This document shows, piece after piece, positions 44,367 to 47,390 of a stretch of DNA of 64,000 bases (position 1 is the stretch's first letter; every line of letters begins with the position of its first letter). The notes under the pieces are model-generated. The model saw only the letters and a list, made by a program, of their open reading frames with translations, ran no database searches and was not told where the DNA came from. Both the position numbers and the translations under genes were made by a program. Origin of the DNA: Anaerolinea thermophila (GTDB lineage Bacteria; Chloroflexota; Anaerolineae; Anaerolineales; Anaerolineaceae); the NCBI RefSeq assembly GCF_020723905.1, contig NZ_DYHZ01000005.1:124001-188000 (forward strand). The letters run 5' to 3'.

Positions 44367-44792
44367 TCATGCTCCTTTTTTGTTTTTCAAAACTTTTATG
44401 GAAGATAGAGAACTATCTAACTTTATCCATGGAGAAATGATTGTGTTGCAGATGGTCTGGGTTTGTTTTTCTATTCTGGAGAACACCTGTTGAACTTTTG
44501 CCATCCATACAGGTGTTTTTCTTAGTATGTGGCTCAACCCTCTGATGCTTAGGACAATGATTATGAGGTTAATCAGGCTGATGAATAAAACAGGGCTGAT
44601 TAACAGAATTGCAGAGATGTTTCCCCAGTGGTTGATCAGGGTGCTTTTTTGAACCGTTCCCAGAATAGATAACCCTGTCAAAACCAGAACAAGTAGAATG
44701 GTAAACCCAAGAGGTAGAAATATTTGATCTCGGACTTGTTTCTGATGAGAGGCTTTAGTGGAAACATTTAAGGATATATTTGTCTGTGCCAT
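44367..44792 (-). CDS. Two-helix membrane protein (unknown)
   Basis: This 141-residue protein has two membrane segments (about residues 26-46 and 60-82), with a basic N-terminus and a C-terminal cytoplasmic tail of about 55 residues. It is the first gene of a minus-strand run leading through the small membrane protein to the PfkB, M20 and YbaK genes. I recognise no family. Confidence 0.6.
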   Translation of the reverse strand: MAQTNISLNVSTKASHQKQVRDQIFLPLGFTILLVLVLTGLSILGTVQKSTLINHWGNISAILLISPVLFISLINLIIIVLSIRGLSHILRKTPVWMAKVQQVFSRIEKQTQTICNTIISPWIKLDSSLSSIKVLKNKKGA

Positions 44793-44850
44793 GACCTAAT
44801 TTTATACTATTTCCATGATTTACTGCATACTGTAATGGATTTGATGCGTT

Positions 44851-44879
44851 TTTATATACGCAATTTTCTTTATTTTCAA
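44851..44879 (-). promoter_or_regulatory. Promoter of the 44792-41533 operon
   Basis: On the minus strand, TTGAAA (44879-44874), exactly 17 bases, then TATAAA (44856-44851). Predicted start near 44844, about 50 bases before the first ATG. Confidence 0.65.
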
Positions 44880-44920
44880 GTATAATAATTTCAGGATAAT
44901 TTGTCGGTTGCCCGAGATTT

Positions 44921-45187
44921 GAATTAAGGCTTAAACCTTTCGAAATTGGACCACTCCAACAGGAGTGTTTTGAGAATTTTGAGAAAATTGGTTAAGGATG
45001 ATGTGAAGAGGTCTTTTGGATGTAATCATTGTGAAGTACTGGTTTACTATCCAGGGGCCTTCCTGTCCGATACCATTTTGATTCAGGGATAATATTATTA
45101 CCTGAGTCGTTATTTATTCGCTCCGTGTTGATTGAGTCATCGAAGGTTTAAGCCGCATTCAGATGAGATTGCGGCTTTTAGGTTTTT
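44921..45187 (+). ncRNA. Structured leader or small RNA upstream of recX, with a terminator
   Basis: The 397-base gap before recX holds a strongly structured element. GGCTTAAACCTTTCGA (44928-44943) pairs with TCGAAGGTTTAAGCC (45140-45154): 15 bp with one bulged T, extended by GAAT (44921) with ATTC (45157). Inside lie CACTCC-AACA-GGAGTG (44952-44967) and a TCAGG...CCTGA hairpin (about 45083-45105). The closing helix shares 45150-45154 with the terminator, so the two exclude each other. It could be a riboswitch-like antiterminator, or a free RNA with paired ends, somewhat like 6S RNA. I recognise no known class. A TATAAT lies at 44881-44886 with no good -35. Confidence 0.55.
45150..45187 (+). 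terminator. Terminator directly before recX
   Basis: AAGCCGCA (45150-45157) and TGCGGCTT (45170-45177) form an 8-bp stem, followed by TTAGGTTTTT. It ends 3 bases before the recX ATG; the only ribosome-binding-like AGG for recX lies in its tail. Confidence 0.75.
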
Positions 45188-45189
45188 AA

Positions 45190-45873
45190 ATGGCTGGCGT
45201 TGTTACTGCTCTGGTATCACAAAAACGAAATGCTCAAAGGATCAATGTGTTCATTGATGGTAAGTTTGCTTTTTCACTCTCAAGAATCGTAGCCGCATGG
45301 TTGAAAGTAGGACAGTTTTTGCCGGACGAAAAAATTGAGCAGTTAAAGCAAGAGGATGCCAGAGAAGCGGCGATGCAATCAGCCCTGAGGCTTATCAGTG
45401 TTCGACCCAGGTCTGAAGCAGAGATTCGGGAGCGGCTTCAATCCAAAAACTTTCCTGAGAACGTCGTGGAAAGCGTCATTTCCCGTCTAAAGGAAAGTGG
45501 ATTGGTAGGGGATGTCGAATTTGCCCGCTTGTGGCTGGAACAAAGACAACATTTTCGTCAGAAAAGCCGCAAAGTTATTGCAATGGAGCTTCGTCAAAAA
45601 GGCGTGACAGACGAGATTATTCAAGAGGTTCTGGCGGAGTCTCCCGGAGATGATCAGACTGCCTATTTTGCGGGACAGAAATACCTGAGGCGGATCATTC
45701 ATTTAGGAAAAAGAGAATTTTTTCAAAAAATGGTGACTTATCTTGCCCGAAAAGGTTTCTCTTATGAAGTGTCTCGCGAGACAGCAAATCGTCTTTGGGA
45801 AGAAATTTCTGATGGTTCCTCAAAATTCGATGGAAGAGAGGATACAGAAAAATGGGACAATTTGGATGGGTGA
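45190..45873 (+). CDS. recX: Regulatory protein RecX
   Basis: This 227-residue protein has the three-helix repeats of RecX, which binds RecA filaments and modulates recombination. Typical parts are ALRLISVRPRSEAEIRERL, VISRLKESGLVGDVEFARLW and KSRKVIAMELRQKGVTDEII. recA is not in the window. The gene overlaps the rny start by 22 bases, so both are co-translated. It lies directly behind the leader terminator, so its expression likely depends on readthrough. Confidence 0.92.
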   Translation: MAGVVTALVSQKRNAQRINVFIDGKFAFSLSRIVAAWLKVGQFLPDEKIEQLKQEDAREAAMQSALRLISVRPRSEAEIRERLQSKNFPENVVESVISRLKESGLVGDVEFARLWLEQRQHFRQKSRKVIAMELRQKGVTDEIIQEVLAESPGDDQTAYFAGQKYLRRIIHLGKREFFQKMVTYLARKGFSYEVSRETANRLWEEISDGSSKFDGREDTEKWDNLDG

Positions 45874-47390
45874 TTATACTTGTAGTGTTGATTCTTGAAA
45901 TAATTCTTGGGATTGTGGCAGTATATTTCCTCAATCGAAAGTACCGTGAAGAGTACCGGAAAGAACAGGAAGCAAAAGCCGATAATATTATTAATCAAGC
46001 CACAGAAAAAGCGCGCATCATTCAACTCGAAGCAAAGGACAAGGCTCTAAAAATTCAGCAGGAAGCGGAAACAGAAATCAGCCGCAGACGTCAGGAACTT
46101 GCTCGCGAGGAGGAGCGGTTAACCAAACGAAGAGCCGAGCTGGATCATCGTATGGAGCGCCTTGAACAACGCGAACAGATGTTGAATAAACGGCAGAGTG
46201 CAATTGATAAACGGGCAAATGAGATTGAGAAACTTTACTCTGATCAAATGCTTGAACTTCAGCGCATTGCCGAAATGAGCAAAGAACAGGCGCGTGAGGT
46301 GCTTCTGCAGGAGGTAGAAAAAGAAGCCCGCAATGATATGGCACGCATTATTCGGCAAATTGAAGCCGAAGCCCGCGTGGAAGGAGAAAAACGCGCTCGT
46401 GAGATCATTGCCGATGCTATTCAGCGCGTTGCCTCTGAACATGTTTCTGAGGTGACCACCTCGGTTGTTTCTCTTCCTAATGATGAGATGAAGGGGAGGA
46501 TTGTTGGCAGAAATGGGCGGAACATTCGTACCTTTGAACAACTGGCGGGAGTGGATGTTATTGTGGATGACACTCCTGAAGCCGTCACCATTTCCTGTTT
46601 TGATTCCGTACGACGTGAAGTGGCTCGCCGCGCCTTGGAGCGTTTGATTCTTGATGGCAGAATTCATCCTGCTCATATTGAGAAAATTCTCAACGAAGAA
46701 CAGCGCAATGTGGAAAAAGAAATTGAGGAGGCTGGACAGCAGGCAGCCTTTGATGCCAACGTTGCGGGGCTGCATCCGGAAATTCTCAAAATCTTGGGAA
46801 GATTGAAATTCCGTACCTCCTATGGACAAAATCAACTGGCGCATGCAGTTGAGGTTTCCCGCCTGGCGGCTGTGATTGCTTCTGAATTGGGGGCCGATGT
46901 TGAGGTGTGTAAAGCCGGTGCATTGCTCCATGATTTGGGCAAAGCCATGGATCACAATACCGAAGGAACCCATGCCATGTTAGGCGCAGAGTTTGCCCGC
47001 CGATATGGCGTACATCCAAAAGTGGTCAATTGTATTGCTTCTCATCACCATGAAGTGGAACAGGAATCTGTTGAGGCTGTAATTGTTGAAGCCGCCGATG
47101 CGATTTCTGGCGCACGTCCTGGGGCGCGCCGTGAGGATTTGGAGCAATACATCAAGCGCTTACGGGCTTTGGAGGAAATTGCCAATTCCTTCAAGGGGGT
47201 AAGCCAGTCGTTTGCTATTCAGGCAGGGCGAGAGGTAAGAATTATTGTGCGTCCCGAAGATGTAGATGACCTGGCTGCAACACGAATGGCGCGAGATATT
47301 GCCAAGAAGATTGAAGAAACCATGCAGTATCCCGGTCAGATTAAAGTGACAGTCATTCGAGAAACGCGTGCGATTGATTACGCAAAATAA
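45852..47390 (+). CDS. rny: Ribonuclease Y
   Basis: This 512-residue membrane-anchored endoribonuclease starts mRNA decay. It has an N-terminal membrane helix (WVIILVVLILEIILGIVAVY), a long coiled coil rich in Glu/Arg (about 35-200), a KH domain (GRIVGRNGRNIRTFEQLAG) and the catalytic HD domain (LLHDLGKAMDH, then HHEVEQES). Length matches the family. It is co-transcribed with recX, so it may share the leader control. The terminator at 47417 ends the operon. Confidence 0.96.
   Translation: MGQFGWVIILVVLILEIILGIVAVYFLNRKYREEYRKEQEAKADNIINQATEKARIIQLEAKDKALKIQQEAETEISRRRQELAREEERLTKRRAELDHRMERLEQREQMLNKRQSAIDKRANEIEKLYSDQMLELQRIAEMSKEQAREVLLQEVEKEARNDMARIIRQIEAEARVEGEKRAREIIADAIQRVASEHVSEVTTSVVSLPNDEMKGRIVGRNGRNIRTFEQLAGVDVIVDDTPEAVTISCFDSVRREVARRALERLILDGRIHPAHIEKILNEEQRNVEKEIEEAGQQAAFDANVAGLHPEILKILGRLKFRTSYGQNQLAHAVEVSRLAAVIASELGADVEVCKAGALLHDLGKAMDHNTEGTHAMLGAEFARRYGVHPKVVNCIASHHHEVEQESVEAVIVEAADAISGARPGARREDLEQYIKRLRALEEIANSFKGVSQSFAIQAGREVRIIVRPEDVDDLAATRMARDIAKKIEETMQYPGQIKVTVIRETRAIDYAK

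Follow-up and report, generated by a model that had tools for sequence, protein, structure and literature searches.

The recX-rny locus and its leader

The window (the whole stretch of 64,000 nucleotides that was analysed) carries recX, which encodes a DNA-repair regulator, followed by rny, the gene of RNase Y, the main RNA-degrading enzyme (Table 1). The first-pass annotation had proposed that the leader would control both genes, and a recX-rny operon is supported by the Pfam domains of their products and by the gene neighbourhood: rny adjoins recX in all 31 loci checked, among them one Dehalococcoidia record (a RecX search of named genomes returned only five distant loci, of which one was used). 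The 22 bases common to the two reading frames (45852-45873) suggest that their translation may be coupled. The small divergent gene on the other side of the leader was recognised at only four of 30 other loci (L036, L041, L049 and L054). The two genes upstream of recX in the window are not recA; one has no Pfam match and the other is PfkB. Elsewhere recX lies downstream of recA in the majority of species studied, and the two are co-transcribed in several cases (PMC3062782).

Table 1. Features of the recX-rny leader and neighbouring genes, in window coordinates
Feature	Position	Strand	Remarks
Small divergent gene	44370-44792	-	No Pfam match; the leader lies between this gene and recX
-35-region element TATATACGCAA	44853..44863	+	17 nt before the -10 box; part of a once-per-genome pattern in four of five genus genomes
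-10 box TATAAT, preceded by G (GTATAAT 44880-44886)	44881..44886	+	GTATAAT recurs 220-560 nt before recX in most loci
Leader RNA (predicted)	44893..45189	+	Start placed from the -10 box, end at the last base ahead of the recX ATG; ~297 nt
Strand A, 5' strand of the long-range (putative antiterminator) helix	44928..44943	+	Pairs with 45140-45154; own-versus-swapped test
Hairpin P2, CACTCC-AACA-GGAGTG	44952..44967	+	CTCC/GGAG-type hairpin, recurrent across loci
Portion of the long-range helix's 3' strand that lies outside the hairpin	45140..45149	+	Flank alone z -5.0 (36 groups)
Strand B, 5' arm of the hairpin	45150..45157	+	Arm alone z -5.8 (36 groups); where its bases vary, they still match A as well as C
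Terminator-like hairpin (45150-45177) and T-rich tail (45178-45187)	45150..45187	+	Hairpin in 122 of 140 loci, T-rich tail in 92 of 140
Strand C, 3' arm of the hairpin	45170-45177	+	Local partner of strand B
recX	45190..45873	+	First gene of the operon; Pfam RecX_HTH1, HTH2, HTH3
rny (RNase Y)	45852..47390	+	Pfam RNase_Y_N, KH_1, HD; overlaps the end of recX

The annotation had described a 15-bp long-range helix in the leader, extended by GAAT/ATTC, which encloses about 195 bases and shares 45150-45154 with the 5' arm of a terminator. Direct reading of the sequence bears this out. G44928-T44939 pairs with A45143-C45154 without a mismatch and C44941-A44943 with T45140-G45142, leaving T44940 as the one bulged base; 196 bases are enclosed, the shared bases are confirmed and the extension is present in the minimum-energy fold, where 44917-44924 pairs with 45157-45164. 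The hairpin itself has 8 bp and consists of AAGCCGCA (45150-45157), a 12-nt loop and TGCGGCTT (45170-45177), followed by TTAGGTTTTTAA. The T tract ends at 45187, just before the recX ATG at 45190, and is interrupted in the window (AGG). Its 8 bp, 12-nt loop and interrupted tail make the strength of this hairpin as a terminator uncertain. It is absent from the output of a terminator scan that allows only loops of 3-8.

The 310-nt region folds with an energy of -87.7 kcal/mol, compared with -72.7 +/- 5.2 kcal/mol for shuffled sequences (z -2.9; one of 100 as good). For the 298-nt leader, too, the fold with the long helix lies at -87.7 kcal/mol. The best fold in which the hairpin is enforced reaches -84.3 kcal/mol, a gap of 3.4 kcal/mol, and it is in this terminator-enforced fold that P2 is formed, P2 being absent from the minimum-energy fold of the window.

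Collection of orthologous loci

A DNA similarity search of 60 relatives gave, as its best match outside the window's own genome, an E value of 0.019 over 29 bases, and RecX is only 45-49% identical within the window's genus. Since the leader has no clear relatives at the DNA level even in the genus, recX was located by its protein. RecX matches were obtained in 58 of 61 own and near-relative genomes, 134 of 147 family genomes and 275 of 298 class genomes. The set assembled from these contains 141 loci: 131 from the 134 family genomes with a RecX match (38 genera; G071, G088 and G139 are missing) and ten from other families of the order. One locus, L114, is without a usable recX start, which leaves 140. 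The duplex tests used 107 of the 140 loci, the others being dropped for want of an exact TATAAT, of a hairpin or arm motif, or of a leader of at least 150 nt. The pool of loci from outside the family comprises 24 from the class search and the ten order-level loci (34 in all, 29 usable).

A conserved promoter upstream of the leader

The promoter was sought in the 137 loci with 560 nt of upstream sequence. GTATAAT occurs 220-560 nt before recX in 118 of these (2.9% in shuffled sequences), namely in 114 of 127 family loci and four of ten order-level loci, and at least one such locus is present in 37 of the 38 family genera. TGTATAAT lies at the same distance in 96 of the 137 loci (1.2% in shuffles). 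GTATAAT alone is not rare, with seven occurrences in the 64-kb window for 3.7 expected. The -10 box, poorly matched in its -35 region, is not among the sites reported by a sigma-70 consensus scan, nor were such sites in excess (three, against 2.0 in shuffles), so that the case for a promoter rests on conservation. The same scan gave no + strand promoter between 44901 and 45190, and the short gap between hairpin and ATG leaves no room for one there.

In the -35 region, TATATACGCAA or a near form of it is present across the window's genus. A slightly shortened form, TATACGCAA-N14-18-TATAAT, which was fitted to known sequences, has a single occurrence in each of four of the five genus genomes, every time upstream of recX; the fifth genome, 61% complete, has no recX match. 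The element (44853-44863) also overlaps an inverted repeat at 44845-44862 and could serve as an operator.

All six genus sets compared (four to 15 loci each, some only subsets of the genus) show higher conservation over the first part of the leader, from 12 to 150 nt past the -10 box, than over the DNA that precedes the promoter, for example 84% versus 58% in one set and 66% versus 31% in another.

The hairpin before recX

A hairpin with a dG of -10 or lower precedes recX in 122 of 140 loci, and the median distance from its end to the ATG is 9 nt (136 hairpins). Its 5' arm often starts with (C)AGCC and continues with variable bases. Close to the 3' end of the hairpin, 92 of the 140 loci have five or more T within 8 nt. 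The remaining 48 either have no recognised hairpin or have fewer than five T in every 8-nt stretch near the hairpin end, and the T-rich tail is missing in genera g4, g8, g30 and g31.

Some of these loci keep the long-range pairing described below without a run of T: L060, L071, L072 (g30), L074, L077, L080 and L100 (g4). The T-less loci of g30 and g4 rank 0-10 among 120 swapped duplexes, as if these two lineages had moved from transcriptional to translational control.

Outside the family, a hairpin starting with AGCC, AGCT or a similar sequence is present in 29 of 34 loci, in a search that required such a start. Because it persists in other families of the order and class, the hairpin seems to be older than the family. 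A GCYGYGRY-like 5' arm is found in the last ~125 nt before recX in ten of the 24 class-search loci (L186, L187, L192, L195, L197, L200, L201, L203, L205 and L206), again by a search that required a related start. Conservation of this arm exceeds the needs of a bare terminator; the long helix is unsupported in these loci.

Long-range pairing between genera

Pairing of strand A with strand B was assessed by comparing the duplexes formed by a locus's own partners with duplexes whose partners had been exchanged between genera, a control that retains both composition and the AGCC motif. Each duplex joined the first 110-150 nt of the leader to 39 nt comprising the flank and the first part of the hairpin arm. 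One locus was drawn from each of 36 groups (32 family genera and four order-level loci) in 40 resamplings, with 2000 permutations each. Own partners pair at -25.9 kcal/mol and swapped partners at -20.1 kcal/mol (median z -9.8, range -8.7 to -11.0), and p stands at its floor of 5e-4 in 40 of 40 resamplings. Hairpin arm and flank each give a signal when taken alone (Table 1). Own partners also have the advantage in two control stretches that lie further upstream (z -2.2 and -2.5), so that a lesser share of the effect is general.

Considered individually, 54 of the 107 loci rank within the best 5% of their swapped duplexes, and 20 outperform all 120. The window's own duplex, at -33.8 kcal/mol, is better than all 120 duplexes with partners from other genera. 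Pairing of at least six arm bases with a dG of -22 or lower is reached by 70% of the 107 own duplexes and by 18% of 2140 swapped ones. At variable positions of the arm, for example the fifth to seventh, B carries three or four different bases, and in many genera both A and C match them; such counts come from fitted duplexes, and the swap test is for this reason the proper evidence. Genus g8 is an exception, with no A:B signal in four of its five loci. A conserved anti-antiterminator hairpin (Z:A), appealing in a few genera, was not supported overall (z -0.85, p about 0.2).

The test fails outside the family (z +0.9 in 29 loci, where some of the chosen hairpins lie far from recX or look wrong), both in 12 loci of one neighbouring family group (z +0.3) and in the 17 others (z +0.7). 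The long helix is thus unsupported in other families of the order and class, and we claim the switch for the family only.

These results bear on the possibility of a plain leader, in which the hairpin would lower recX-rny expression by a fixed amount and the long helix would be a by-product of GC-rich arms. Such a leader could account for the own-partner advantage of the control stretches, for the modest number of individually significant loci (54 of 107), for the unsupported anti-antiterminator and for the conservation of the hairpin alone outside the family. It does not lead one to expect that swapped partners, which share the arm motif and the composition, pair about 5.9 kcal/mol worse on average, a difference which argues that A and B have changed together. 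We consider this explanation unlikely. The sequence between promoter and hairpin turns over between genera while the pairing of the 5' strand persists.

Pairing within single genera

Covariation inside genera is weak. In an unfitted MAFFT alignment of 13 sequences from g11 (A1), a 7-bp A:B helix is paired in all cells and includes one compensated pair, a count reached by 64 of 500 shuffles. A second helix proposed there is no more than 29% paired; taken together, the two reach 70.5%, versus 26-50% when slid. The g11 hairpin is paired in 95.7% of cells, with two compensated pairs (reached by two of 500 shuffles). In a g16 set (A3) the A:B helix is 84% paired versus 21-44% when slid, and its A:B covariation is no higher than in shuffles.

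The enclosed domain

A CTCC/GGAG-type hairpin corresponding to P2 was sought in the early leader of the 125 loci with an exact TATAAT and is present in 54 of them, from 20 of 38 groups (4.2% of shuffled leaders); as the search required the motif, these counts are no proof of covariation. The most enriched 5-letter words are GGAGT and CGGTT, each in 19 of 36 groups (7.4 and 8.5 expected, respectively). Profile HMMs built from two genera matched other genera only weakly and over short stretches (best E 0.0086). Beyond the CTCC/GGAG hairpin, word enrichment and profiles, which can miss a small core, found no strongly conserved aptamer core across genera. A peptide-leader attenuator was also considered and set aside: in eight genera there is no conserved leader peptide or short reading frame (a start in at least 80% of members, at least eight codons and a common stop).

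A riboswitch for a metabolite or ion, belonging to a new class and using the enclosed 196 bases as its aptamer, would be a special case of a switch. The ON-switch geometry, the recurrence of the CTCC/GGAG hairpin in 54 of 125 loci and the high conservation of the first ~140 nt within genera speak for it, but no core of shared bases extends between genera, GGAGT and CGGTT being the best words and the profile matches short and weak, and recX and rny point to no metabolite. We regard a riboswitch of this kind as very unlikely.

Comparison with known RNAs

At gathering scores Rfam gave no match at the region, and in the whole window only three tRNAs. Relaxing the limit to E <= 10 produced three sub-threshold matches in the region, to unrelated families and all on the other strand. 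Twenty orthologous loci were likewise without a match at gathering scores, and a search of 20 such loci at E <= 2 gave three sub-threshold matches, all to an animal RNA-editing element. The first-pass annotation recognised no known riboswitch family here, which agrees with these searches. It had named two outcomes that would count against a new element, an Rfam hit or a lack of conservation and covariation in relatives, and the comparisons made here did not refute it on either point. No description of a recX-rny leader RNA was found in Rfam 15, in literature searches or in the main text of the structured-RNA discovery papers searched. The Chloroflexi-1 motif is known from the literature and has an Rfam number; Rfam gave no match to it at the leader.

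The annotation had left open two readings, an ON-type switch or a free RNA with paired ends resembling 6S RNA. The first part of this proposal stands in so far as the family has conserved the switch geometry (helix formed, readthrough; hairpin formed, stop) and the swap tests show the partners changing in concert. The identity with 6S does not. 6S RNA has a closing helix around a large internal region, and the leader is like it in both respects, but the region does not match RF00013 even at E <= 10, and the genome has a separate 6S gene (80.7 bits) on another contig. RNase P RNA and tmRNA were rejected as identities on the same grounds, each gene being found elsewhere in the genome, outside the window (283.3 and 151.8 bits, respectively).

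A free small RNA could also be of another kind: an abundant transcript of ~290 nt, its ends paired through A:B, would act in trans and recX-rny would receive the leftover read-through, an arrangement that is not strictly exclusive with a switch. A near-consensus extended -10 box in most loci would suit such an RNA. So would the greater stability of A:B than of the hairpin in 29 of 33 listed groups (medians), by which the terminated RNA could refold, and small RNA genes co-transcribed with a downstream gene are known, as in the case of 6S RNA and ygfA. Against this, the pairing takes in the hairpin arm and not the flanks alone, the RNA remains beside recX while the upstream gene changes, and it is not 6S, RNase P or tmRNA. 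In addition, the 29 loci with four or fewer T after the hairpin keep A:B on average (own partners -25.4 and swapped partners -19.0 kcal/mol; 15 of 29 in the best 5%), as is expected if the element serves recX-rny and would not be predicted for a small RNA that needs its 3' end. We judge a free small RNA quite unlikely, and the conserved overlap of A:B with the hairpin arm makes the switch the better fit.

Transcription attenuators and ON-type riboswitch platforms are built from a promoter, a structured leader, and an antiterminator and terminator with a common strand. The recX leader shares with them the promoter, the long structured leader and the short distance to the first gene, as well as a putative antiterminator and a putative terminator that are mutually exclusive and use one strand. 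It differs in having no known sensor domain, no leader peptide in the eight genera searched, a putative antiterminator span of ~200 nt, and recX-rny as its genes.

We know of no terminator switch in the 5' UTR of E. coli rne, which encodes another enzyme than RNase Y. The likeness lies in a 5' UTR before the gene of the main decay endonuclease and in feedback in cis: RNase E is feedback-regulated through the rne 5' UTR (PMC10989929). In B. subtilis, RNase Y controls its own mRNA by cleavage in the coding region and the 5' UTR (PMC10303841). What invites comparison is the use of the rny mRNA, 5' UTR included, to control how much of the decay enzyme RNase Y is expressed; the B. subtilis system works by cleavage and mRNA stability, whereas the recX leader has the anatomy of a terminator and antiterminator, and a role of RNase Y in it is a guess.

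Proposed mechanism and significance

The comparisons across loci show a conserved promoter, a conserved hairpin and two mutually exclusive predicted pairings of strand B that are kept through sequence change in the family. From these we infer that the hairpin terminates transcription, that A:B prevents termination and that the balance between the two is regulated. The 5' leader of recX-rny is thus probably a two-state transcription attenuator. The promoter at 44853-44886 would start a leader RNA of ~297 nt, in which strand A could pair, over ~200 nt, with the segment before the hairpin and with the first part of hairpin arm B. With A:B paired the hairpin would be blocked and RNA polymerase would read into recX and rny; with B:C paired transcription would stop a few bases before the start of recX. 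Where the T tail has been lost and the pairing kept, the hairpin may instead hide the recX start.

As to the trigger, the little sequence that the enclosed domain shares between genera leads us to guess that a protein, and not a metabolite, is sensed. This could be RNase Y, whose level would be registered as it binds or cuts the leader, or another RNA-binding protein. Feedback by RNase Y is the leading guess, and a natural one, since recX and rny would hardly be reached except through the hairpin. In a self-sensing switch of this type, RNase Y or a partner would bind or cut strand A or the enclosed domain and so favour the terminator, and when RNase Y is scarce the long helix would form and the operon would be read. 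We hold this particular version to be rather unlikely. If true, control of RecX, and with it of homologous recombination, and control of mRNA decay would be coupled through one family-wide attenuator.

The data point to an on/off RNA switch that a bacterial family has conserved without conserving its sequence, pairing alone being kept as the bases change from genus to genus. This would be a cis-regulatory RNA of large size, family-wide, placed ahead of two genes that connect DNA recombination with global RNA decay, and it would offer a testable case of an mRNA-decay enzyme under transcription attenuation.
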